Counted from the first letter of the stretch, positions 9,211 through 32,973 are shown. The stretch: 33,128 bases of DNA from Caldithrix sp. (GCA_014730185.1 WJIP01000280.1:1-33128); one strand, 5' to 3'. Notes: generated by a model from the sequence alone, not told the origin. Numbers and translations: made by a program.

Positions 9211-12156
9211 TTATTTCAATAATAGTATTTTCTTTTGGATTTTATGTTTATTATCAACCGTAAGCTGATAGAAGTAAAAACCGGAACTTACTTTATTGCC
9301 AATCTGATCATTAGCATTCCAGCGTACCGTATTTAATCCTCCGGGTCGTGTACCGTTCACTAAGGTGTTTACTTTTTGCCCCAGCGTATTGAAAATTTCC
9401 AGTTTAACTTCAGAAGCTTCTGGTAAATAAAAGTTGATATTCGTGACTGGATTAAACGGATTCGGTGAGTTAAATACCATCTTAAATCCGATTTCCTCTT
9501 CAATGTCTTCCAAATTAACATCCGTAACCTGAACAACCGAAGAACTTCCGTCTGTACTACCACATGTAACCACATTAGCAGCTTCATCATAGGTCCATCC
9601 CGATTTTGTCACATTATCAACACAGAATGTAAACTCGCCGTCACCTACCACCCAACTTGATTTGGCGGTTGCCCAACCATCGGAACCGGTGACTACTTCG
9701 TCCTGGTCTGAAGCGCTACCCGACCAACTGCCGGTTACCGTGGCATCACTAACCGGATTACCACTGCCATCAACAACACGGATTTCGGCTGAGCCCCTGG
9801 TTACTATCCAGAACGCTTCTTTAACCACATCCAGCGCGCTTACATACATAGATTGCTGGGCCGGTTCGCTAACTGTAATATAATCGGTTTTGGTCTCAGT
9901 ATCCGATCCAAAATCATTGGTTGCGGTAAGACTGACTGTGTAGGTACCCGCACTGGTATACTCATACGTTGGATTTTGAGTGGTCGAAGTACCTCCATCA
10001 CCAAAATCCCAACTCCAACTGGTGGGTTCATTGGTTGATTGATCGGTGAATGAAACCGTCAGCGGGGCTTCACCCGATGTTGGAGTACCGCTGAAATCAG
10101 CCACTGGAGCACTGCCGCTTGGTTCGGATACTGTGATATAATCGGTTTTAGTTTCGGCATCGGAATCGCATGAATTGGAAGAACTTAGCGTTACTGTGTA
10201 CGTTCCGGCCGACGTATATTCATATGATGGGTTTTGGGCATTGGAAGTACCGCCATCACCAAAATCCCAGATCCAGGATGATAAATCTCCGGTGGACTGG
10301 TCGGTAAACGATACGTTTAATGGCGCCTCACCGGATGTTGGTGATCCACTAAAATCCGCTGTGATGGATTCGTATACGGTTATATAGTCTGTTTTGGTCT
10401 CCGTATCGGAACCATCCGGTCCGCTGACGGTCAAAGAAACCGTATAGGTGCCCGGCGAAGTATATTCATGGCTGGGATTTTGTGCGGTTGATGTATTGCC
10501 ATCACCAAAATCCCAGTTCCAGGAATCGATCTCACCGCTGGATTGATCGGTAAAAGAAACCGTCAGTGGAGCGCAGCCCTCGGTTACATCTGCAGTAAAT
10601 TCTGCTGAAGGCGGTTGTGTACCACCGCCGGTATTAACTGCATTAAAGGCATTCACGCGACCGGCGCCCAGTTTACCTTCGTAAGAGGCATTGCCGGAAA
10701 TACCGTAAATATCATCAGCGGTAGCATACAGATGTTGCTCAACCTGTTCGCGCGTCCAGCCCGGATTTTGTGACCATATCAGAGCGGCCACTGAAGCAGT
10801 AAGCGGCGTCGACATAGAAGTACCACTTAATGTAGCGGTATAATCATTCTCCGGATCATCATTATCATGATAAGTACTCAGAATATCCGAACCCGGAGCG
10901 GAAATATCCACAAAACTACCATAAGTTGAGAAATCCGACTTAACATCATTCTGGTCGGTGGAGGCTACCCCGATTACATCGCTACGATCCAGCATATAAT
11001 CCGATTCTTCGTTATCATCATTTCCCGCTGCTTTGAAAACTAATCCACCACTGGCTACAAAGTAATCAATGGCATCGCCCAGCCCACCGGAATTGGATGA
11101 TCCCCAGCTACAGGACGCAATCTGGGCCCCGTTATCAGCGGCATAATATAAAGCATCAGCAGCAAATCCCATATCCACATAGCCTACTTCGAAGATAAAA
11201 TATCTTCCGGACCAGCCGATGCGCATAGGCATAATTTTCACACCATTACCCTCTACAGCCTGCGAACCATTGTTCCAGCCACCAGCTGGGGATGCAACAG
11301 CATAATTATTATTATTGATAGCGGCAACAATACCGGAGCAATGAGTACCGTGACCGTTGTAATCCCGGGGGTCGTTATCCGGAACGTCGTCATCCTCTCC
11401 GCTTACTCCGCTTTTATTATCGACAAAATCCCAACCGATCCAATCATCCACGTATCCGTTGCCATCGTCATCAACACCATCCGCTCCATTTTTCTCCGCT
11501 TCGTTAATCCACATGTTACCCCGGGCCGCTTCCGGATTAGAATAGGAGGCATCGGCACCGCCCAGGTCTTTATGAAAATAGCGCACTCCTGTATCCAGAA
11601 TGGCAACAATGATTTGATCACTTCCGGTCTCGATGTCCCAGGCCTCGGGAGCATCCACATCGGCATCATTACTTTGACTGAGGTGCCATTGACTGCCGTA
11701 TTCAGGATCATTGGCATTGCGGGCATAGAGTTTATGGATACCAATGACCTGGGCATCAATTATCCCGGAAACCCGGCGATAAGCTCTGGCTACACGTTCA
11801 GCATCAATTTCATTTTTGAAACTAATACGAAACCATAAACGGGGATCTATCGTCCGCCCCTGGTAGCGACGGGGCTGTAAATCAGGGTATTTCTGGATCA
11901 AGCTCTGAGCGGCAAATTGATTATTCAGACGATCCAGGGCTTCGATCCCTGTAATAGCTTCTCTTGCCGCCCGTCGTTTATCTATACGATCAAGTAAAGA
12001 ATTATTCAATTTGATAACAATGTGCTGCTTATCATACCCAAGAAAATTCGGTACATCTTCGTTATCCATCGATACGGTTTTATGCTTCACCTGCTGTGCA
12101 AAAAGGAATGAAGAAAATAATGCGAGTGAAAGAAAAATAGAAGAGATACGTTTCAT
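9211..12156 (-). CDS. Secreted subtilisin-like serine protease with three PKD domains and type IX-style sorting domain
   Basis: A 981-residue protein with signal peptide MKRISSIFLSLALFSSFLFA and a propeptide-like region to about 150. The S8 peptidase domain has a complete triad: D188 (ILDTG), H269 (HGTHCSG) and S447 (GTSMSTP), with AAGN as the oxyanion Asn. Three PKD domains (WDFGDG motif) cover about 517-762. An Ig-like segment (about 770-870) follows, then a C-terminal sorting domain from about 893 with PNPFNP, GQKV and SSGFYFYQL, ending in KKILLLK, typical of type IX cargo in FCB bacteria. The protein is probably secreted and surface-attached, degrading extracellular protein. GGAGG lies 7 nt before the ATG. 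The gene stands alone with its own terminator. The catalytic call is very secure; the secretion route is inferred. Confidence 0.93.
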   Translation of the reverse strand: MKRISSIFLSLALFSSFLFAQQVKHKTVSMDNEDVPNFLGYDKQHIVIKLNNSLLDRIDKRRAAREAITGIEALDRLNNQFAAQSLIQKYPDLQPRRYQGRTIDPRLWFRISFKNEIDAERVARAYRRVSGIIDAQVIGIHKLYARNANDPEYGSQWHLSQSNDADVDAPEAWDIETGSDQIIVAILDTGVRYFHKDLGGADASYSNPEAARGNMWINEAEKNGADGVDDDGNGYVDDWIGWDFVDNKSGVSGEDDDVPDNDPRDYNGHGTHCSGIVAAINNNNYAVASPAGGWNNGSQAVEGNGVKIMPMRIGWSGRYFIFEVGYVDMGFAADALYYAADNGAQIASCSWGSSNSGGLGDAIDYFVASGGLVFKAAGNDDNEESDYMLDRSDVIGVASTDQNDVKSDFSTYGSFVDISAPGSDILSTYHDNDDPENDYTATLSGTSMSTPLTASVAALIWSQNPGWTREQVEQHLYATADDIYGISGNASYEGKLGAGRVNAFNAVNTGGGTQPPSAEFTADVTEGCAPLTVSFTDQSSGEIDSWNWDFGDGNTSTAQNPSHEYTSPGTYTVSLTVSGPDGSDTETKTDYITVYESITADFSGSPTSGEAPLNVSFTDQSTGDLSSWIWDFGDGGTSNAQNPSYEYTSAGTYTVTLSSSNSCDSDAETKTDYITVSEPSGSAPVADFSGTPTSGEAPLTVSFTDQSTNEPTSWSWDFGDGGTSTTQNPTYEYTSAGTYTVSLTATNDFGSDTETKTDYITVSEPAQQSMYVSALDVVKEAFWIVTRGSAEIRVVDGSGNPVSDATVTGSWSGSASDQDEVVTGSDGWATAKSSWVVGDGEFTFCVDNVTKSGWTYDEAANVVTCGSTDGSSSVVQVTDVNLEDIEEEIGFKMVFNSPNPFNPVTNINFYLPEASEVKLEIFNTLGQKVNTLVNGTRPGGLNTVRWNANDQIGNKVSSGFYFYQLTVDNKHKIQKKILLLK
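9868..10608 (-). repeat. Three tandem PKD-domain repeat units
   Basis: Repeat units within the subtilase gene, recognised by recurrence of CCATCACCAAAATCCCA (plus strand) at 9995, 10253 and 10499, giving unit spacings of 258 and 246 bp. They encode PKD domains with GEAPL(N/T)VSFTDQS, WDFGDG and GTYTV motifs. Similarity at the DNA level suggests fairly recent duplication of units. Confidence 0.85.
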
Positions 12157-15378: not shown

Positions 15379-17103
15379 TTAAAATAACACATTGATCTCG
15401 GAACCGTATTTGATGCCGGTATAGCTTTCGAAGGTATCAAAGTACTGGGGACCGTAATCGGGATCAGCAATGACTTGTAGCGCTTCTTCTGTTGAATAAC
15501 GCATTCTGCGTACATCAGAACCAACAATTACTTTAAAGGATATATTGTTATTAAAAAAGTATTCCAGTCCAAATTCACCGGCAATCTGATTATAATCGCT
15601 CAGCATATCCTGTACGCCACCATTATCAGCCTCATTGTACAGTAAAGACATTGTGGCTTCCATAGTTAATTTTTGCCTTAATATATCCCAGCGGCCGGAA
15701 GCGTATGTGTATATATTATGATTAAGCTGTTCGTTCGTCATTTCCATGTAGCTGTACACCGTTCCGCCGGACAAATAGAGTTGTGATGACGGCCGAAGGT
15801 AAATGTTCATGCTATTAACCAATTGAAGGGTACCCAACGGTTCGCCTCCCGGTACCAGACTTCGGTCGTTCAAATCGATATATAATGATGAAATAGAAAA
15901 ACGGTTGTTGCCCATAGAGAAATTTATCCGGCCATCGATGGTTTGCGTCTGTTTCTTGGTTTGGCTCAATAAATCTTCACCCAGATCAACCGCATCACTC
16001 CGGTCATCACGGTACCGCCAGCTCAAAGATATCCTTGGCCAGTTTTTAAAATAGGTTTCCATGGAAATTTCAGCAATTTTTATAGTTGTCTTTGGTATAC
16101 CTTCGCGATTATCCAGGTTATCTTCGTACTGTTCGCCCTCCAACCCAACAACCACGGCATCGGCAAAACGATATGCGCCTTCAACCACTATCCCTTCCCG
16201 ATCCGTTAACAAATAGGGATAACCAGCCGTGTAGTAATCATATCCTATACGACGATAAAAACTCAAAAATTTGAAATTCCGGTATCGGAAATCAACGCCC
16301 CCTTTATAAGCATAATCTTGAATATTGTTTGCCGATAGGGTATCCTTTTGGCTGGCATAAAATTCACCGAATCCCTTTAAGTTCTGCCCCCACAGGAACA
16401 AGGTGGATTGAACACCGGCATTACGGTTATTCAGCGGTTCATTGAAGGCATCATTAATGGATTGCTCATCATCCTCCGCCATCAGGTATTTGAATGCCAG
16501 ATGAAACCGATTGCGCCATCCGGACCGAATGATGGCGTTAGCCATATAACGCCTGTATTCTCCGGAATTTTCATATTGATGATAAAATCCTCTTAAACGT
16601 TCTCCAATTGCCCGAGCCTCCCTGACCAGACCGGCATTAAAGGTTGTTTCCAAAAAACCGCCTGTACCGTAAATATTATCCAGCTCTACTGCAAAACGGG
16701 CGCCGCGGGTTTGCCGGCTTTGAGCGAATAATTCAGATCCCGTTTGGAAAAAATCACCCAGAGTAATTTCAATGTCGCTAAAACGAACATTCAATGTCAG
16801 GCGATCAACATCCTTCCATTGTTGAATGTGATCCCACCGATTATTCTTAAGATCACCGAGTAAGGTAACATCCAATCCCTCCCCTCTGGCAAATAAGGAA
16901 AGATTAACCCGTTGTTGTAATCCTGGGACCAGGGAACCTTTTGCATATTGATCGGAAGCAATTGTATCCGGTTTGATTTCGGAATTCTCATCCAAATCTG
17001 TATTGGTTACCTGCATCGATACGCGGCCGGTAACATTCAAAGATTGCTGCCCGTTAAGGAGAAACGGCACTAGAAACACTACATAAATTACCCATTTTTT
17101 CAT
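15379..17103 (-). CDS. Putative outer-membrane beta-barrel protein (surface operon, third gene)
   Basis: A 574-residue protein with signal peptide (MKKWVIYVVFLVPFLLNGQQ) and, for its whole length, alternating polar/hydrophobic strands rich in Tyr, Arg and Gly with a C-terminal Phe (SEINVLF), the hallmark of Bam-assembled barrels. Near the N-terminus VRFSDIEITLGDFF and RQTRGARFAVEL stand out as a compact motif, which may mark a plug or periplasmic region. I do not recognise a named family. GGGAGG lies 4 nt before the ATG, 12 nt after the stop of the FecR-domain gene, so it is very likely translated with it. Inferred role: pore, anchor or assembly factor for the surface protein encoded first in the operon. 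It is not obviously PorP/SprF or TonB-dependent. Confidence 0.7.
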   Translation of the reverse strand: MKKWVIYVVFLVPFLLNGQQSLNVTGRVSMQVTNTDLDENSEIKPDTIASDQYAKGSLVPGLQQRVNLSLFARGEGLDVTLLGDLKNNRWDHIQQWKDVDRLTLNVRFSDIEITLGDFFQTGSELFAQSRQTRGARFAVELDNIYGTGGFLETTFNAGLVREARAIGERLRGFYHQYENSGEYRRYMANAIIRSGWRNRFHLAFKYLMAEDDEQSINDAFNEPLNNRNAGVQSTLFLWGQNLKGFGEFYASQKDTLSANNIQDYAYKGGVDFRYRNFKFLSFYRRIGYDYYTAGYPYLLTDREGIVVEGAYRFADAVVVGLEGEQYEDNLDNREGIPKTTIKIAEISMETYFKNWPRISLSWRYRDDRSDAVDLGEDLLSQTKKQTQTIDGRINFSMGNNRFSISSLYIDLNDRSLVPGGEPLGTLQLVNSMNIYLRPSSQLYLSGGTVYSYMEMTNEQLNHNIYTYASGRWDILRQKLTMEATMSLLYNEADNGGVQDMLSDYNQIAGEFGLEYFFNNNISFKVIVGSDVRRMRYSTEEALQVIADPDYGPQYFDTFESYTGIKYGSEINVLF

Positions 17104-17115
17104 CCCGCCTCCCGT

Positions 17116-18585
17116 TTATCGGATAATAATAGTATGGCTGTTATCTCGGGTTACATTGCCGGCCATATCTTCCACATAAATATTTAATCGGTTTTCTGCG
17201 GCGGATAGAGCCCCCGGTTTTCTTTCCAGAACTATTTTAGTCTCAAAACTACCGTCGGATTTGGGTTGCACGTCTTTGCCGTTGATGGTAACTCGTTTGA
17301 TTTTAGAGGAGGGTTCCGGGTCGACAATAATCCCCCTTATGGTTTGTTCAAAACGTTCGGCCCGATTATTGAGCTCATTTTGCGGAGGTCTGGGCGGTTC
17401 ATAACGCACAAATACTTTTTTGGGGGGATCAGTAATGTTTATGATCGGTTTTACTGTGTCCAAAAATATATTTTCATTGATCTGTGTTCGATTATCGGAA
17501 AGATCGGCCGCCATGATATTGATTGTGTTTTGTCCTTCATTGAGAATGATGGTACGGTTGAATGTACCGCGACCGACAACCTGAGTAATCAATTGTTCAT
17601 TAATGAATACTTTGATACGATCGGCAGGGGTAGGATCGAAAACTGCACCGCTCAAGCTGTAATCCCGTCGGTTCAGAAAGCCGCTTACCAGCGGTTTGGA
17701 CAATCTGATTTCCGGTGATTGGGTATTAACCAATACTCTGACTGTTTTTTCTTGTCGCCGCTGTCCTTTGACAGCTTGCAGATTGATGGTATTAATGCCT
17801 TCCCGGACAGCCACCCGTCCTCTAAAGTTACCATTCGGGGTGACCTGTAACGGTTTCTGATTAGCAAATACTTTTGTATCTGCAGTAACCTGTCCCTGGA
17901 GCAATATCCCCCCGGTTAGCACGGCCGGATCCTTATATTGAAAACGTGATGTATTGACTTTAAACCGGAAGCCCATAGACTGGTCCTCTCGATTGTCGTC
18001 GCCCGGTTGAACGCTTGCCGGTTGTGTAGGTGCCCGGCCCGGAGCCACAACCGATTGCTGATTAGCCCCCACCTGAACTTCACCCTCCGCATCCTTGGAT
18101 CGCACAGATACCAGACCCTCGATGACCTGAACTGTGGTAGTACGTTCCTCATTTACATTCATCCTGAGCGTTGTTCCTCGAATAGCAACAACCGCACTTG
18201 GACTTTCAATTTCACGTTTCTGTCTGGAAGTGATTACTTTTTTAAATTTGGCCCAAACATCGCCAGCCCAAAGCGTAAATCCCATACTGTCCTCATCATC
18301 TTCCTCAGGACGCTTAATCTCATCCACATCAAATATAGTATTTTCATTAATTTTGATTAAGGAACCGTCCGGCATCGTCAGCTCACAACGGGAATTAAGC
18401 CGAGTGCGAATGCGATCTCCTGCAAAAACAGCCATGTCAAGCTGCGCCTTTTTCCATTGGGTTTCTGTTTTGGGCATCACCTGAACCTCGCCGATCAGAA
18501 AGGACATGTCGGCGCTATTTTTTGCGGACAGCCGTATTCCTGCGGCTAAAAAAAATATTATCGAAAAATAAAATGTCTTTTTCAT
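17116..18585 (-). CDS. Secreted FecR-domain protein with Ig-like repeats (surface operon, second gene)
   Basis: A 489-residue protein with signal peptide (MKKTFYFSIIFFLAAGIRLSA). A FecR-like domain covers about 25-175: GDRIRTRLNSRCELTMPDGS, then ESPSAVVAIRGTTLRMNV and VQVIEGLVSVRS. At least three Ig-like/glucodextranase-B-like units follow (about 215-490), each ending in a pattern such as EGxNTINIxAxDxSDN or ENRLNIYVEDMAGN. Classical FecR is a membrane anti-sigma regulator; this protein has no cytoplasmic part and no sigma-factor gene nearby, so a structural or ligand-binding role in the periplasm is more likely. Start ATG 18585 is chosen over TTG 18591 because GGAAG then lies 9 nt upstream. 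The gene sits between the giant surface protein and the barrel gene, with 31-nt and 12-nt gaps. Confidence 0.78.
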   Translation of the reverse strand: MKKTFYFSIIFFLAAGIRLSAKNSADMSFLIGEVQVMPKTETQWKKAQLDMAVFAGDRIRTRLNSRCELTMPDGSLIKINENTIFDVDEIKRPEEDDEDSMGFTLWAGDVWAKFKKVITSRQKREIESPSAVVAIRGTTLRMNVNEERTTTVQVIEGLVSVRSKDAEGEVQVGANQQSVVAPGRAPTQPASVQPGDDNREDQSMGFRFKVNTSRFQYKDPAVLTGGILLQGQVTADTKVFANQKPLQVTPNGNFRGRVAVREGINTINLQAVKGQRRQEKTVRVLVNTQSPEIRLSKPLVSGFLNRRDYSLSGAVFDPTPADRIKVFINEQLITQVVGRGTFNRTIILNEGQNTINIMAADLSDNRTQINENIFLDTVKPIINITDPPKKVFVRYEPPRPPQNELNNRAERFEQTIRGIIVDPEPSSKIKRVTINGKDVQPKSDGSFETKIVLERKPGALSAAENRLNIYVEDMAGNVTRDNSHTIIIR

Positions 18586-18616
18586 ACTCAAAATCTTCCC
18601 GCTTTTTTGATATTAT

Positions 18617-21600
18617 TTACTTAATTAAGATCATTTTCCGCGCTGATTGATGCTGAAATCCCTCAAACCGAATAATGTAAATACCGCTGGACACGCTAGT
18701 TTGATTACTGTTATAACCATCCCAGCTCATGGTATGGACGCCTGCCTCCAGCGGTTCGTGAAAAAGCGTTTTAACTTTGCGGCCCAGCAAATCATAAACG
18801 GTTAGGGTGGCCTTTTTGCCGTCTGCATAAAATGGCACAGCGATGCGGAGAGTAGTTTGCTGGTTAAAAGGATTGGGATAATTCGGGCTTAACTGATAGG
18901 CTGTAGGCAATATCTGCGGTTGAAATTGGTCGTCATTGGTGGCGTATAGTTTGAATTGTGCCCGGATATGCTCAGCGGGTATGGTGTAGGAAAGCCGTTC
19001 ATCCAATCTGAACCATTGCCCGCTCTGTAAATGATAGAGGTAAAAATGCAGTTGCCCGTTATTCGATTGCAAATAATCCCAGGTTAAAACGGCGGTTTGT
19101 CCGGGTTGTTTTCCCTGTATGAAGATATCCCATTCGTAGTTTTGGATTTCGGTTTTGGCCGTTTTTATCCAGGCCGAGAGGGCATTACCTTGACGCACCG
19201 TATACAAGCGGGGCTGGTTATCGATCGGTGGCGGTTCAAAAGCATCATGTGTATACCATGCCAAATTTTCTCCCGGGTCTTTGATGCCGAAGTAATTATC
19301 GTCATCGGCATATTGACCGCTGGTCATTTTTAATTGTATCACAGAAAACGCCGTCTCAGGCAATGATTGATTACCCTGGCGGGCCAAAAAATTTTCTTCT
19401 ATGCCCAACTCTGTTTTGGGTTCATAAGGGTCACCATTCAATGTTATTATTGCCGGTCTGTAACTCCATATCCAATAACCTTTATGCGGTTGCAGCCAAA
19501 CACCGGTCTGTCTAACATATCTCTGTAATGGCCAGGTTTGATAATGATAAATTGCCGGAGAAATCAAACTATCTGCTACCGCTTCTTTAAACGAATAGGA
19601 TTCGGCATCAGGTGTTGCGATTGCAGTGTTTTGCAAATCAATATGCCAGCCCCATGGATTGCCTAACTGATTCCATCCTGTTTGCAGGTGCACACTCACC
19701 TCTTGTTTCTGTTCCAGAAAAGGCAGATCATTAAGATCCACCTGACCACTTGCATTATGAATCATCCAATAGCCACGCCCGTATTCGAGTGAGTCCGTCT
19801 TAACAGTTTCATATTTACCTTTGCTCCACTTTTTAAGCGCTAAAGGCGGCTTTTCGTTTAATTTGGCGGTGAAACCTTTCAATGCCCGACTCGGTGTGAT
19901 CATTTGCCACCGGTTTTTGAAAATGATCAGCTTACCGGCTTGTACCATTATTGTGTCGGCAATTTTATTGTCGGCAGCAAGTCCGCCATTGAAGGCTGTA
20001 TCAAGGGCTGCCACCTGAAACAAATATAGGCCATCGCTGAGAGGATAAAATTGAATATCCTGTTGGGAAACACGGTTACTATCTATGGTCATGATGCCTT
20101 GATGATCTTTACGCATCAGTCGATACTCATAACGCAGCAGTCGATCCGGTGTGCCAATGGAACTGAACACACTGTCATCCCCGGTAAACCTATATTTCAG
20201 CAAAGCTTGTTTCACGGTATCCGTTGGGGTGTAGGTAAATAAAGTTCGGGGCGCCATCAAGTCACGATACGATACCAAAACAGTAACGGTAATGTGCTTA
20301 CTCAGTTCTCCGGTGTTCGTATCAACAAACGAAAGTCGGTGCGTATAGGTTGAATCCCGCTGTAATCCATCGGCAGAAATAAGCAGACGCCAGGTTTGCT
20401 GCCCCCCGGGTAAAATGGGCGATTCCGGTCGTTGTAATATCAACCATGCTGGCTTGTCATCGATCTGCTTCAGTTGAAGGGGCAGTGTACCCAAATTTGT
20501 GACCTTAAAATTACGGCTAAGTATATCTCCTTGTCCAAGCTGTACCGTAACCGATTGCTGGCTGAATGCATAATCGATAATATCCCGGCGGGCTCCTAAT
20601 ACCTTAGAATACCCGGAAGCTCCGCCGTTCGTGTCTACATAAGCCAAACGATAAAAATAATCCTGTCCGAATTGAAAGTCCGTATCAACATAACGGTATG
20701 TACCGCGCGGTCGAAGAGCTATCATGTCGGACGTATCCGGATGAAAAGCTTTGATCGTATCTCTGAAAATGGCCGTAGCTGCAAAAAATGCCGAAGGTGA
20801 CTGCAAGGGCGGTGACCAGTTCAGCACCAAACTGGAATCGGTTGAATCTATGGCGGCCTCAGGCCTTTCCGTGAAATTGAATGGCCGTCCCACACTGCCA
20901 AACAACCCAATATCTGAACGGCTGCTGTCACCGCTGGATAATTGGGGATGCCCCCGGTCCAATAATGGCGAGCCCGGTGCCAGCTTAAAGGCATTTGGAT
21001 CAAAACCGGAGTCATTTACGGTATATTCTCCCGGCAAAACATAATAATCCTGTACAAATAATGGCGCTACATGTAAGGTGTTCAGAGTGTCCGTAAGACC
21101 ATGCAAAAGTTGATGGTTCATAAATAGATCGTTATAATGAAATTTTACTTCACTGTTGGTAGCCATTACCGGTATATTATTATATCCCAAAATATTATTG
21201 ATAAGTTCAGCATTACCATTATTCACCGATACAGCACCACCATTATTTTGAGCGAGAGAATCATTAACACCCATTATCGTATTCTGAATGTATGCATTAC
21301 TGCCGTCCAACTGAATACCCCAAGTCCTGTTGCCCGAGACCATGGCGTTTTGAATATGCAATCGACTATTATCCCTTACATTGATTCCATTGCCGCCTTT
21401 GGCATCTAATACTGCACATAAACCCAGGTCGCCTTCACTATTACTAAGTTGTAAATTATAGGAATAATTTTCGGCAATTTCCGCATACCTTAGTTTCAAT
21501 CCAGATTGATTGTTAAGTGTGATACCTCCGGTTGTTGTATTGCCATCCTGTCCATTTCCCCCTACAAACATATCTTGCAAGGAAAGGTTACTATTATCGG

Positions 21601-24600
21601 CCAGTATGCCCCCTGCATCGTTGTCAACAATATCTCCACCGGATAAAACTCCTTCAGAAACCAGCATCTCCAATCCCAGCACATTCCGAGAGACGTGCAT
21701 ATCCTTTGCGGTCAGACTCGACCTCTCGGCATAAAGACCTTTTTCAAAACCACCCAGCCGCACACGCTTCAGCCTTACCGAATCGCTTTCCAAAATATTC
21801 AGACCGACAGCTGTGGGATATGGGGTCTCGTTACTCAAATCCATATTCTCGATCCGAACACTGTCATTTTTTATACGCACAAGCGCATCCGTGCTGAGAA
21901 ACGATGGGCCTGGACGGAGCAACACGCCGTGAGACTGACTTCCCATAATGGTTATGCGCTGGTCGATCACCAGATTTTCCTGATAGACCGCTGGATGAAC
22001 AATTATGGTATCCCCATCGAATGTACGATTCAGGGCTGTGGATATGGTGGAAAACGGTGCATCTAAAGAACCGTCCCCTCCGATTTCATTTCCATCAACA
22101 TAATAGGTTCTTGACTGCCTGGTAATATTTTCCAGAAATTGCCATCCGTCCAACGCTGTGTTGGTACTGTAAGCCAGTATATCCAAATCGCCATCTGCAT
22201 CGAAATCAGCAGGTATGATCCTGTCCGCTGAGATATCCATAGGGAACGAACCTAAATCCGTGATGGACTGTACGCCGCCTCTGAAAAATTGTATCGTAGT
22301 GTTATCCAGGGCGGCAGCCATATCCAGCAGGCCATCGGAATCAAAATCTGCACAAACCACATCATTGATGGTATGGTTTAATGTCACATCATAGTATTCA
22401 TTTAACTGGCCGTCCGATTGAAGCTGCAACACTTTCAAATAGTTGTCATTGTTTAAAGGGTAATTTCCAGCCACCACCAAATCTTCCGTTTCTCTCACTA
22501 GGGTTTCGTGCCAGACATTGGCTGCTTGCAATACCTGCTGTTCGCCCAAATCCAGAGACGTGCTGATTCGTTTGTTAAAATTGCGATCAAGATTAAGCAG
22601 TAAAGCGAGGTTATCAGAATCGCTGCCGTTATTGGTAATGATATCCGGCCGACCGTTCTCATCCGCATCGAAACGCACCATTTTGTGCGCCTGCCCGGAA
22701 ATATTGATGGGTGTGCTGCCACTTAACTGATAGCCCTCCCGGAGACTGCCGTAATAAACAGTCACTTCTTCAAAGAGGAAGAGCCGTTGCAGAATAGCCA
22801 TATCCATAATTCCATCGAGGTCAAAATCATCAACGATAAAATCTTTGAGCGTGCCGCCACTGTCTCGGAGTTGATCCAGAATCTGTGTAAATCCCTGCTG
22901 CGTATCATATGCAATAATACGGATGCGTTGGTCATTGACCAGCACAAGCTCATTATTTCCGTCATTGTCCATATCTGCTGCCCGGAGCATGCTGAAAGGA
23001 GCTTCCAGTAAAATACTGTCCCTCAATGCAAAATGGAAAGCTTCGGTAGATTCATAGATATACAGATGATCACCCCTGAGTTGCGCCAAATCGATTTGAT
23101 CGTTGCCTGTCAGCTGCGCTGCAATGATCCGTTTAATATCCGAATAACTGCTATCGGCTGCCGACGCCTGCCATCCGGCTGTTCCGCGGAAAGCACCAAC
23201 ATTAAACCACCAGCTATATCCTTGCGTGACGGACAATCCCTGTTCATTTAAAATGCCGTCGGTCAACACAACCGTGATCTGTTCTCCGGATATAAATGGA
23301 CGTTGCGGTATTAAATAGATGGTTTGCCGGGTGTTATCGTACAGGGAATCATAGATATATTGTCCCCGTTTATCCGATACAATTTTAACGGTAGAATCGT
23401 TGATGGTACTGGGATCTATGTCCTCCCTGAACCGAATCTCAACCACTGCATCTTTCGGCACATCACTCTGGTAAGCCGACGGATAGACACTGAGTGCGGT
23501 ATCTGCTGCTTGCCCTGGAATGCCCAGCGTAAATTGTTGCCCGGGAAGCGTATTCAAATTAAGCCGGGCTTCTCTGATTAGTGGATCGATTTCCGCAGAT
23601 AGAGGTTGCCAGCTATCCTGATCTGAAGATCGGTAATAGACCTGCATATCGCTTGCGGCAGGGGCGCCGATATTTTCCCATTCCTCTTTCTGATATTGAA
23701 AGGTTAATTCAATGTTCGGTTTGTCCCAAATCCCTTCTCCCCATGCTATATCGTACAATTTTTCCATTGTTTTGACGGATTGATCATTGGACAAAACGGT
23801 ATCCGGGAATGTATTGACGATAAGACCGGCTAAAACAGAATCTGCAGACAATGTATCCGTTAAGGTCACATAACCGTCTCCAAACCAGTAGGCTGGCTGC
23901 TGATTGTACAATGAAATCTGTAAAGGTACCGGTTGATGTTTAAACTGCAATTCACTCAAATCAGCCCCCGGAATAGATATTTGCAGCTTAACGGCATTGC
24001 CTTCACGGAATCCCCAAAAATTATCATCCATATTAAGAGATGGTATGGATTGTTCCGCATGTACGGCATTCAGATTTTCTGAGGCATAGTTGTGATAGAT
24101 ATTATTTTGCAAATTATCAGCTCCACCCAGTGTCAACCGATTTATCTGATGAATGCCAATACCCCCGCCTCTCAGAACGGCATTGTTCCCGGATACCTGA
24201 TTGGACCACAATTCAATACTGGCATCCATTGAGTTACTGAAGTAGAGTCCGCCTCCGGCTTCCTGAGCAAAGTTCGAAACAATGATATTGGAACTGACGA
24301 TGGCATTGTTAATATCTTCAAAATAAAGGCCCCCTCCCTGGCCTCCGCTTTCATTTTGGGCAATGGAATTTTGATAAACCGTGTGATTATAAGCGCTTCC
24401 GATCAGATATATTGCGCCCCCATGATTTATCGCCTTGTTGTGGAACAGCCAGTTACTACTGATTGAATTTCCATAAATATCCGGAGTCGTGTGGGCATCG
24501 ATGTATACCGCCCCTCCCCTCCCGGCGGTATTGTCGTAGACCGTATTCTTTTGAATAAGGGCGTCACTGCAGGATTGTAAAAAGATAGTGCCGCGGCCGG

Positions 24601-25216
24601 TATCTGAAGTGCTGTGATTGAAAATGTGATTATGGATGATTTGAGGCGCGCTGCCATAGGCGTAAATCGCGCTACCTCCCCGAGCTGTGTTGGCCGACAA
24701 TTCACAATTGATAATCCTGGGCGCGGCAATTATCTCATTACTGATGATGCGTATCCCGCCTCCCTGCTGATCATTATTTCGGTTGTGATTAATTAAGCAA
24801 CCTCTGATGTCTGCAGAGATATCGGTAAGCTGGATAGCACAACCCTGGAGTGTACTATCACTGTGTGTTATCTGCAAATTTTTGATTCGAATATCAGGAT
24901 TGGAATCATCTCCTCCGGTAATGCTAATGGTGGGTCCTTCCAAGGGACAGGCTATGATGGGCATATGATCCGGATCGGCGCTTTGTAAAACAAATGCCAT
25001 CGGATTATTGAGCACAAGTTGTTCGTAGTAAACACCCTCATATATGTGGATGGTATCCCCATCGCTCAATTGAGATAAAGCATGATTAATGGTTTCCCAG
25101 GGATCATCCACCGTTCCTGCAGCCTGATTATCACCGTCTGCGGCCACCCAATATTGACTGGCAAAACCTTTGCTTATCCAAATAAACAGGATAATGAAAA
25201 ACAATATACGTATCAT
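18617..25216 (-). CDS. Giant exported multidomain protein: two beta-helices, Ig-like, FG-GAP repeats, FN3, type IX-style sorting domain
   Basis: About 2199 residues. A signal peptide (MIRILFFIILFIWISKGFAS) is followed by: a first right-handed beta-helix with DUF1565-like start (YWVAADGDN ... GTVDDPWETI; about 25-420); a Big_5/SbsA-like Ig domain (about 575-675); FG-GAP/VCBS repeats with D-rich calcium-type loops such as ADMDNDGNNELV, DDFDLDGIMDMA and ADFDADGDLDIL (about 700-1010); a second beta-helix opening YYVDGNEIGGDGSLDAPFSTI (about 1035-1400); an FN3-like domain (about 1450-1545); a further Ig/BACON-like region; and a C-terminal sorting domain from about 2109 (PNYPNPFN, LLGRKVKTL, SSGIYIIRF). 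GAGGG lies 7 nt before ATG 25216; an ATG at 25246 would misplace the signal peptide. Probably a cell-surface adhesin, filament or polysaccharide-interacting protein; the function is unknown. First gene of the three-gene envelope operon. Confidence 0.88.
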   Translation of the reverse strand: MIRILFFIILFIWISKGFASQYWVAADGDNQAAGTVDDPWETINHALSQLSDGDTIHIYEGVYYEQLVLNNPMAFVLQSADPDHMPIIACPLEGPTISITGGDDSNPDIRIKNLQITHSDSTLQGCAIQLTDISADIRGCLINHNRNNDQQGGGIRIISNEIIAAPRIINCELSANTARGGSAIYAYGSAPQIIHNHIFNHSTSDTGRGTIFLQSCSDALIQKNTVYDNTAGRGGAVYIDAHTTPDIYGNSISSNWLFHNKAINHGGAIYLIGSAYNHTVYQNSIAQNESGGQGGGLYFEDINNAIVSSNIIVSNFAQEAGGGLYFSNSMDASIELWSNQVSGNNAVLRGGGIGIHQINRLTLGGADNLQNNIYHNYASENLNAVHAEQSIPSLNMDDNFWGFREGNAVKLQISIPGADLSELQFKHQPVPLQISLYNQQPAYWFGDGYVTLTDTLSADSVLAGLIVNTFPDTVLSNDQSVKTMEKLYDIAWGEGIWDKPNIELTFQYQKEEWENIGAPAASDMQVYYRSSDQDSWQPLSAEIDPLIREARLNLNTLPGQQFTLGIPGQAADTALSVYPSAYQSDVPKDAVVEIRFREDIDPSTINDSTVKIVSDKRGQYIYDSLYDNTRQTIYLIPQRPFISGEQITVVLTDGILNEQGLSVTQGYSWWFNVGAFRGTAGWQASAADSSYSDIKRIIAAQLTGNDQIDLAQLRGDHLYIYESTEAFHFALRDSILLEAPFSMLRAADMDNDGNNELVLVNDQRIRIIAYDTQQGFTQILDQLRDSGGTLKDFIVDDFDLDGIMDMAILQRLFLFEEVTVYYGSLREGYQLSGSTPINISGQAHKMVRFDADENGRPDIITNNGSDSDNLALLLNLDRNFNKRISTSLDLGEQQVLQAANVWHETLVRETEDLVVAGNYPLNNDNYLKVLQLQSDGQLNEYYDVTLNHTINDVVCADFDSDGLLDMAAALDNTTIQFFRGGVQSITDLGSFPMDISADRIIPADFDADGDLDILAYSTNTALDGWQFLENITRQSRTYYVDGNEIGGDGSLDAPFSTISTALNRTFDGDTIIVHPAVYQENLVIDQRITIMGSQSHGVLLRPGPSFLSTDALVRIKNDSVRIENMDLSNETPYPTAVGLNILESDSVRLKRVRLGGFEKGLYAERSSLTAKDMHVSRNVLGLEMLVSEGVLSGGDIVDNDAGGILADNSNLSLQDMFVGGNGQDGNTTTGGITLNNQSGLKLRYAEIAENYSYNLQLSNSEGDLGLCAVLDAKGGNGINVRDNSRLHIQNAMVSGNRTWGIQLDGSNAYIQNTIMGVNDSLAQNNGGAVSVNNGNAELINNILGYNNIPVMATNSEVKFHYNDLFMNHQLLHGLTDTLNTLHVAPLFVQDYYVLPGEYTVNDSGFDPNAFKLAPGSPLLDRGHPQLSSGDSSRSDIGLFGSVGRPFNFTERPEAAIDSTDSSLVLNWSPPLQSPSAFFAATAIFRDTIKAFHPDTSDMIALRPRGTYRYVDTDFQFGQDYFYRLAYVDTNGGASGYSKVLGARRDIIDYAFSQQSVTVQLGQGDILSRNFKVTNLGTLPLQLKQIDDKPAWLILQRPESPILPGGQQTWRLLISADGLQRDSTYTHRLSFVDTNTGELSKHITVTVLVSYRDLMAPRTLFTYTPTDTVKQALLKYRFTGDDSVFSSIGTPDRLLRYEYRLMRKDHQGIMTIDSNRVSQQDIQFYPLSDGLYLFQVAALDTAFNGGLAADNKIADTIMVQAGKLIIFKNRWQMITPSRALKGFTAKLNEKPPLALKKWSKGKYETVKTDSLEYGRGYWMIHNASGQVDLNDLPFLEQKQEVSVHLQTGWNQLGNPWGWHIDLQNTAIATPDAESYSFKEAVADSLISPAIYHYQTWPLQRYVRQTGVWLQPHKGYWIWSYRPAIITLNGDPYEPKTELGIEENFLARQGNQSLPETAFSVIQLKMTSGQYADDDNYFGIKDPGENLAWYTHDAFEPPPIDNQPRLYTVRQGNALSAWIKTAKTEIQNYEWDIFIQGKQPGQTAVLTWDYLQSNNGQLHFYLYHLQSGQWFRLDERLSYTIPAEHIRAQFKLYATNDDQFQPQILPTAYQLSPNYPNPFNQQTTLRIAVPFYADGKKATLTVYDLLGRKVKTLFHEPLEAGVHTMSWDGYNSNQTSVSSGIYIIRFEGFQHQSARKMILIK

Positions 25217-31913: not shown

Positions 31914-32372
31914 TCATTGGGTAAATTGTTCTTTGATGATTTCAGCAACCGCTTCCGGAGTTTTTGCATTCAACAAGGCCTGCCGTATTTCATCGGATTT
32001 ATAATTTCTGGAAATAGTAGCCAGAGACTGTATATGCGGCCCGGATGTATCGCGCGGTGAAAGCACTAAAAAAATCACCTGGGCTGGCTTACCATCCAAA
32101 CTTTCGAAATCCAAACCATCTTTTTTGATGCCCATGGCAATCAATAATTGATCCACACCATCGGATTTGGCGTGGGGTACGGCTAAGCCTTTTTCCAGCC
32201 CCGTGCTTAAATAGCCTTCTCTGGCCAGCAAATCCTTTAAGGTGACCTCTTTATTCAGCAATTGCTTGTTTTCGTCCAGCAGGGAAAGCAATTCCTCGAT
32301 TACATCAAATTTCAAATTACTTTTAATATCCAGCGTTATGTGCTCGGGCGGCAAATGCTTGGAAATATCCAT
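31914..32372 (-). CDS. PTS EIIA(Ntr)-like phosphoacceptor protein
   Basis: A 152-residue EIIA-2/PtsN-type domain. The phosphorylatable His is H67 in GLAVPHAKSD, followed by IFLVLSPRDTSGPHIQSLA, which carries the second conserved His. The spacing equals that of PtsN, which is phosphorylated by the PTS-Ntr relay and regulates targets such as potassium transport rather than transporting sugar. No EIIB/EIIC gene is present, which favours a regulatory role. GGAGG lies 4 nt before the ATG. It is divergent from a second EIIA-like gene and upstream of the polyprenyl synthase. Confidence 0.88.
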   Translation of the reverse strand: MDISKHLPPEHITLDIKSNLKFDVIEELLSLLDENKQLLNKEVTLKDLLAREGYLSTGLEKGLAVPHAKSDGVDQLLIAMGIKKDGLDFESLDGKPAQVIFLVLSPRDTSGPHIQSLATISRNYKSDEIRQALLNAKTPEAVAEIIKEQFTQ

Positions 32373-32499
32373 TAATCCTCCAATTTTAATCGATTTAATT
32401 TATTGAATTGGAAAAATTATGTCAATCTATTATAATAAATGGTTTGTCATCATCATAAATAATACCTAAATTGGTTAAAATGTTTAAGCTGGAGGCACA

Positions 32500-32973
32500 A
32501 TGCAATTAACCGATATTCTGTCCGAAGAATTTATCAAATTGGATCCGGATGCAAGGGATCGAGATACCTGCATTAAAAATTTGCTGGATCTGTTAGACAA
32601 ACATGAACTCATTAAAGATGTAGATAAAGCTTATAGGGCTGTCCTCGACCGGGAAAAAATCATGACGACCGGTGTGGGAAACGGCATTGCCATTCCTCAC
32701 TGTAAAGACAATTCCTGCCCTAACTTCGCCGTAGCTTTAGGGATTCACTGCAATGGTGTGGACTTCCAGGCCATTGATAAAAAGAATGCGCAACTTATTT
32801 TTCTGTTGGTAGGACCCGAAAACAACCCCGGATTGCATATCAAATTACTCAGTAGAATATCCCGACTGATGAGTAATGAAGAGCTACGCCATCAACTGAT
32901 CAAATGTAAATCAGCCGCAGAAGCCATTGAAATCATCAAGGAAGAAGAAAATTATTACTTTGACATCGAGTAA
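32500..32973 (+). CDS. Second PTS EIIA(Ntr)-like protein
   Basis: A 157-residue EIIA-2 paralogue of the divergent neighbour: H67 in GIAIPHCKDN, TTGVGNG just before it and LIFLLVGPENNPGLHIKLLS with the second His. The Cys after the active His (HCK) differs from the neighbour (HAK). Most likely a phospho-regulated signalling protein. GGAGG lies 4 nt before the ATG. A P-II-like gene starts 7 nt after its stop, suggesting the two are coupled. Intergenic DNA of 127 nt separates the divergent IIA genes and must contain both promoters. Confidence 0.88.
   Translation: MQLTDILSEEFIKLDPDARDRDTCIKNLLDLLDKHELIKDVDKAYRAVLDREKIMTTGVGNGIAIPHCKDNSCPNFAVALGIHCNGVDFQAIDKKNAQLIFLLVGPENNPGLHIKLLSRISRLMSNEELRHQLIKCKSAAEAIEIIKEEENYYFDIE

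Follow-up and report, generated by a model that had tools for sequence, protein, structure and literature searches.

The window analysed here is a 33,128-nucleotide (nt) stretch of DNA from Caldithrix sp. that constitutes an entire contig (C227) of a 4.1 Mb draft genome (G000). It carries three genes, all on the minus strand, that encode in this order a giant exported protein, a protein combining a FecR domain with immunoglobulin (Ig)-like domains (hereafter FecR-Ig), and an outer-membrane beta-barrel, with intergenic gaps of 31 and 12 nt. Our results show that the recurring unit at this locus is the association of a FecR domain with an outer-membrane barrel, and not a three-part secretion system. 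We give about an even chance to the interpretation that the locus encodes a two-protein outer-membrane module, made of a plugless barrel and a periplasmic FecR-Ig partner, to which the giant protein is an optional surface component.

Results

Barrel orthologues, either full-length or split between contigs, were found in 22 of the 40 genomes of the phylum Calditrichota (families f1 to f6) that made up our sample: 14 of 15 in f1, six of six in f2 and two of three in f3. FecR-Ig orthologues are present in exactly the same 22 genomes, and the other 18 have neither gene (Fisher's test, p = 9e-12, a value that is overstated because the genomes are related). On every fetched locus whose contig carries both genes, the barrel comes directly after FecR-Ig, with a spacing between -29 and +17 nt; in two genomes (G003 and G010) a contig end cuts the FecR gene, leaving its 3' end beside the barrel. 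The pair can also be absent as a block. In G022, the genes encoding a lytic transglycosylase and an acyl-CoA dehydrogenase are directly adjacent, and FecR-Ig, barrel and giant are all missing together. In G007 the pair was not found, but the contig ends near the transglycosylase gene and an assembly gap is possible. The original prediction for this DNA, made from the sequence of the window, had described three exported proteins of about 2199, 489 and 574 amino acids (aa) encoded in one direction; these coordinates and lengths are correct, as is the expectation that related Calditrichota would keep the gene order. Because order and spacing are conserved across the loci that we fetched, the three-gene layout is not the product of chance. 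Scans for promoters and terminators gave signals no higher than in shuffled sequence and were uninformative on co-transcription.

The association between FecR and barrel reappears at a second locus, where a paralogous barrel of ~800 aa has C-terminal ~530 residues homologous to the window's barrel (hhalign, 99.3%). This longer barrel is present in genomes of f1, f2, f4, f5 and f6. Its gene is preceded by those of an Ig-like protein and of a ~225-267 aa FecR protein (loci L056-L059, L113-L118 and L120), and in all fetched loci except L116 it is followed by a gene encoding CHASE2 and an adenylate/guanylate cyclase; the families were scanned on L057 (5483-11948), and the other loci were assigned by similarity to it. 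In the window's own genome the ~800-aa barrel and the cyclase are carried by contig C238, whose end truncates the locus (L055). The two types of loci have homologous barrels, each with a FecR-domain protein encoded immediately upstream, an arrangement thus found at 22 short loci and at the paralogous long ones. They differ in that the paralogous FecR protein lacks Ig repeats, the paralogous barrel has an extra N-terminal Ig-like part of ~230 aa, and the pair is preceded by the Ig-like protein and followed by the CHASE2 cyclase, with no giant. The persistence of the pair without the giant, together with the presence of paralogous barrel and FecR genes elsewhere, makes FecR plus barrel a solid unit. 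The paralogous locus is a candidate outer-to-inner-membrane signalling system of class-wide distribution. In one genome (G006) its ~800-aa barrel is split into two open reading frames of 415 and 443 aa (L058 7467-9973) by a frameshift, either real or an assembly error.

A third type of FecR protein measures about 700-790 aa. Its N-terminal FecR domain is related to that of the window (hhalign, 99.8%) and is joined by a Pro-rich linker to a putative barrel-like region at the C terminus. This region, recognized from the look of its sequence, ends in VMHF or VIRF and has no detectable homology to the window's barrel. In these fusion proteins (L061 5868-8027; L062 7754-10084; L138-L144), found in 10 genomes that we looked at, the barrel-like region contains DxDxDG calcium-type repeats.

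The giant is less regularly present. A full-length giant lies directly upstream of the pair in 10 of the 22 genomes (G000, G005, G006, six f2 genomes and G023), the orthologues at the same site in the nine other genomes having 2133-2434 aa and the giant-FecR gaps ranging from 9 to 100 nt; the copy in the f2 genome G017 is divided between two contigs. The pair stands without the giant in the other 12. In nine of these (G001, G003, G004, G008, G009, G011, G012, G014 and G021) the site is empty on a single contig, where the transglycosylase gene is directly followed by FecR, while in G002, G010 and G013 the contig breaks at the giant site and no full-length giant was found anywhere in the genome. 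None of the 18 genomes lacking the pair has a full-length giant. Since the giant is found in f2, f3 and part of f1, the three-gene operon would most simply be ancestral, and the giant would have been lost repeatedly. Phylogenies of giant, FecR and barrel do not conflict with this history, and both the barrel tree and the FecR tree recover f2 and f3 as groups. Their deep forks are weak, so we regard vertical descent with repeated loss as likely but unproven.

The barrel gene (15379..17103, minus strand) encodes 574 aa predicted to form a 26-stranded outer-membrane beta-barrel, ending in a C-terminal Phe, with no Cys and no plug or STN domain. The AlphaFold2 model, built with 19 orthologues, is confident (pLDDT 86.5, pTM 0.74) and has 26 long strands, joined by short turns at one end of the barrel and by longer loops at the opposite end; assuming the usual topology with both termini in the periplasm, the turns would be periplasmic and the loops outside. 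Conservation is higher at lumen-facing than at lipid-facing positions (0.71 vs 0.58, p 4e-6), although facing was assigned by hydropathy and the contrast is partly expected of any porin; it is also higher in the outer loops (0.64) than in the periplasmic turns (0.46). Of the outer loops, GYDYYTAGYPYLLTD is the best conserved, and it corresponds to a segment of the paralogous ~800-aa barrels (consensus SLGQPYLLRD). We found no match to the barrel among Pfam, NCBIfam or PDB sequence families, including plug and STN domains and the usher plug, N- and C-terminal domains of Pfam, in line with the prediction of an outer-membrane barrel of no named family. Fold matches in the PDB are generic: MtrB (6r2q_B) has the top TM-score among the matches listed (0.60/0.54), and the FimD/PapC ushers that appear among the Foldseek matches have query-normalised TM-scores of 0.25-0.44, a generic barrel similarity. 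A scan of genome contigs with the single barrel gave no match. The same scan with the barrel alignment retrieved records labelled Calditrichota, Calditrichia or Caldithrix and one labelled Caldisericaceae, which matches the contig of G002; it relies on a pair of short motifs and could miss distant relatives in other phyla. Two further barrels have other neighbours. At L119 (3557-7447) the gene of a 722-aa protein with TPR repeats is directly followed by that of a 569-aa barrel with weak similarity to the window's, and at L124 (5009-9785) a 572-aa relative precedes a 986-aa protein, perhaps coiled-coil in part, that has a segment in common with the Ig-like protein encoded at the FecR-barrel-CHASE2 locus.

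FecR-Ig (17116..18585, minus strand) has 489 aa, or 491 if a TTG start is called. A signal peptide without lipobox Cys leads directly into the FecR domain (18109..18417, minus strand; aa 57-159), with no cytoplasmic part upstream, and three Ig-like domains are recognized in the protein. The FecR match (PF04773) scores 52.1 against a gathering threshold of 24 bits and was found in 18 of the 18 orthologues scanned. One Ig-like domain matches Glucodextran_B above the curated cut-off (17458..17715, minus strand; aa 291-376), and this is the Ig repeat detected in all orthologues. Family scans of the window genes identified no sigma factor or TonB-dependent receptor. These domain scans agree with the predicted FecR and Ig-like protein lacking both a cytoplasmic part and a nearby sigma factor. 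The absence of a sigma factor stands, but it is no oddity, as FecR/CHASE2 pairs are documented in other phyla (PMC5192318, PMC9239204).

The giant (18617..25216, minus strand) has 2199 aa from the ATG at 25216, or 2209 from an alternative in-frame ATG upstream. Its signal peptide is followed by a first beta-helix, a Big_5 domain, an FG-GAP region, a second beta-helix, FN3/Ig-like domains and a sorting domain of type A of the type IX secretion system (T9SS), an architecture on which Pfam and NCBIfam matches agree with the original description. All on the minus strand, the first right-handed beta-helix (Pfam Beta_helix) lies at 24362..24907 (aa 104-285), Big_5, an Ig-like domain, at 23204..23503 (aa 572-671), and the top FG-GAP_3 repeat, one of three stretches over the cut-off, at 22175..22348 (aa 957-1014). 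The second beta-helix region, with limits set by eye, spans 20882..22129 (about aa 1030-1445, minus strand); its opening (YYVDGNEIGGDGSLDAPFSTI...GDTIIVHPAVYQENL) is a repeat of that of the first helix. The Pfam scan found four Beta_helix stretches in total. The C-terminal Por_Secre_tail/FlgD_ig sorting domain (18629..18880, minus strand; aa 2113-2196) is the most conserved region of the giant and exceeds curated cut-offs (TIGR04183, 32.4 vs 23 bits; PF18962, 28.2 vs 27). SprA (TIGR04189), the type IX translocon, is present in all 40 genomes, in 38 of them above the cut-off. The type A tail and the ubiquity of SprA therefore make the general T9SS the probable exporter of the giant, and a dedicated pore unnecessary. 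As far as export is concerned, the giant, with its sorting domain and an encoded SprA, is an ordinary member of the T9SS type A cargo. A second family of T9SS-tailed proteins, of about 1950-2000 aa (L121 1809-7691, L122 2670-8555, L123 2156-7993), shares with it the C-terminal ~550 residues and is encoded away from the giant site in most genomes of the order.

Discussion

The module is best read as an outer-membrane channel or receptor with a periplasmic FecR partner and a kinship to signalling systems. In the barrel, conservation centres on the polar lumen and the outer vestibule. Secreted FecR-Ig would bind the barrel from the periplasm, on or in its periplasmic mouth. A barrel of this size needs to be filled or capped, presumably by FecR-Ig, by the long outer loops, or by both. 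Binding at the outer face might then be reported, or transport gated, through FecR-Ig, coupling outer events to the periplasm. For the paralogous pair, the CHASE2 cyclase could act as the receiver; the window's locus encodes none. The giant, once exported by the T9SS through SprA and either kept at the surface or released, may act at the outer face of the barrel. It was probably co-expressed with the module ancestrally, and several losses would have followed while the pair was kept. What the data establish is the order of the genes, their inheritance together, the presence of the T9SS, the predicted fold of the barrel and its paralogy with the FecR-barrel-CHASE2-cyclase locus; physical binding, gating or signalling, and the role of the giant are what we infer.

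Several observations weigh against this interpretation. The periplasmic turns, a plausible docking side for a periplasmic partner, are the least conserved part of the barrel. The structure model of FecR-Ig has low overall confidence (pLDDT 69, pTM 0.34), and a fold search with it retrieved mainly Ig-type domains, the SiiE adhesin first. The whole neighbourhood is syntenic within the order, so that adjacency there is weaker evidence. Finally, the short locus has no gene for an inner-membrane partner: the scanned window genes include no CHASE2 sensor enzyme near the pair, the nearby HD-GYP gene is inherited independently, and the signalling output is left unaccounted for.

The original prediction gave the three genes a dedicated role in secreting or assembling the giant, with the barrel as its pore or anchor and FecR-Ig as its periplasmic escort. 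We consider this quite unlikely. The giant is indeed restricted to genomes with the pair (10/22 vs 0/18) and sits directly upstream of it with gaps of 9-100 nt, and ushers are among the fold matches of the barrel. Yet 12 genomes keep the pair without the giant, nine of them with an empty site on one contig, the giant has its own T9SS tail with SprA in 40 of 40 genomes, and the paralogous barrel accompanies a CHASE2 cyclase instead of a giant; the usher matches amount to generic barrel similarity. A barrel acting as secretion pore for an optional protein that carries a T9SS tail is thus disfavoured. We regard as unlikely, but worth keeping in mind, that the locus serves in uptake, with the giant capturing a large substrate at the surface, the barrel importing it and FecR-Ig acting as periplasmic binder or gate. 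This would fit the Beta-helix, NosD and pectate-lyase-like matches in the giant, the polar and conserved lumen of the barrel, and the ability of the pair to work without the giant. However, the barrel has neither a TonB-dependent plug nor an STN domain, and no transporter or glycosidase gene was recognised among the scanned neighbours.

FecR-Ig and the barrel might alternatively have a structural role as a tether between the outer membrane and peptidoglycan or other envelope proteins, with no part in transport or signalling. The presence of LysM on FecR proteins elsewhere (PMC5192318), the Pro-rich linker of the FecR-barrel fusion and the conservation of the adjacent lytic transglycosylase gene would suit such a role, which is nevertheless improbable: the pair has no LysM or OmpA-like domain, a conserved lumen and conserved outer loops are unexpected in a mere anchor, and G022 tolerates the complete loss. 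Least probable is that unrelated genes were kept together only by regional synteny, even if flanking genes of unrelated function likewise keep their order and some neighbours, such as the HD-GYP gene, are inherited independently. The FecR-barrel adjacency is found again at a second, non-syntenic locus with homologous barrels, both genes are missing together in G022, and their gaps are near zero or negative.

The components of the locus are of known kinds, a T9SS cargo, a FecR domain and an outer-membrane barrel, but the pairing with this barrel family appears to be new. Among known systems, FecA-FecR-FecI cell-surface signalling (PMC9249621) also joins an outer-membrane barrel to a FecR-domain protein; the window's locus differs in lacking a TonB plug or STN domain and an extracytoplasmic function sigma factor, and its FecR protein has neither a transmembrane segment nor a cytoplasmic part. 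In Campylobacterota, a FecR-domain outer-membrane protein is clustered with a CHASE2 adenylate cyclase, a TPR protein and a phosphodiesterase (PMC9239204), so that there too a FecR domain goes with an outer-membrane protein and with signalling by a CHASE2 cyclase, although the gene set differs and the outer-membrane protein is likened by description only, not by barrel family. The BiofilmReg operon of Burkholderia, with its LysM-FecR protein and CHASE2 histidine kinase (PMC5192318), shares with the window an exported FecR protein without sigma factor, but has a peptidoglycan-binding LysM and a kinase in place of a barrel. As for the barrel itself, MtrB of the MtrCAB conduit is likewise plugless and has 26 strands, in its case filled by a cytochrome (6r2q_B; PMC7198977); here there is no cytochrome partner, the identity is 11%, and there is no sequence-family match, so that the resemblance is probably one of strand number only. 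We rejected an MtrB-like electron conduit, since the window's barrel has no Cys, none of 19 barrels matched MtrB and no cytochrome family was found among the scanned neighbours. In the open-licence literature we found no paper on a FecR domain with an outer-membrane beta-barrel, nor any account of the pairing of FecR with this barrel family, its duplication beside a CHASE2 cyclase or the optional giant.

FecR domains without sigma factors are common and unexplained. At two unrelated loci, and in one apparent fusion, FecR always goes with an outer-membrane barrel, which suggests that the general job of the domain is at an outer-membrane protein, and this would hold whatever the output, be it a sigma factor, a CHASE2 kinase or a cyclase. 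A bolder proposal, which we find conceivable and advance only tentatively, is that Calditrichota have an undescribed form of outer-to-inner-membrane sensing, in which a soluble FecR protein would relay signals from a plugless 26-strand barrel. The receiver would be a CHASE2 cyclase at one locus; at the other, the giant surface protein exported by the T9SS would be either the receiver or a partner in the signalling. Such a design would extend a FecA-FecR-like principle to systems without TonB receptor or sigma factor. The analysis also identifies, in a phylum with few cultured members, a barrel family without Pfam or NCBIfam model.

Other genes of the window

Close downstream of the three genes, together with the acyl-CoA dehydrogenase gene, lies a gene encoding a response regulator with an HD-GYP domain. 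We considered extending the operon to both genes and rejected this for the HD-GYP gene, which is inherited independently: it is a single-copy orthologue class-wide, including in genomes where the pair is absent or distant. Further along, positions 9211-12156 encode an S8 subtilase that combines PKD domains with a tail of T9SS type and has the same neighbourhood in several genomes. No further gene of the phosphotransferase system (PTS) was seen in the window beyond two divergent PTS EIIA_2 genes at 31914-32973, which are kept together in many genomes of the order.

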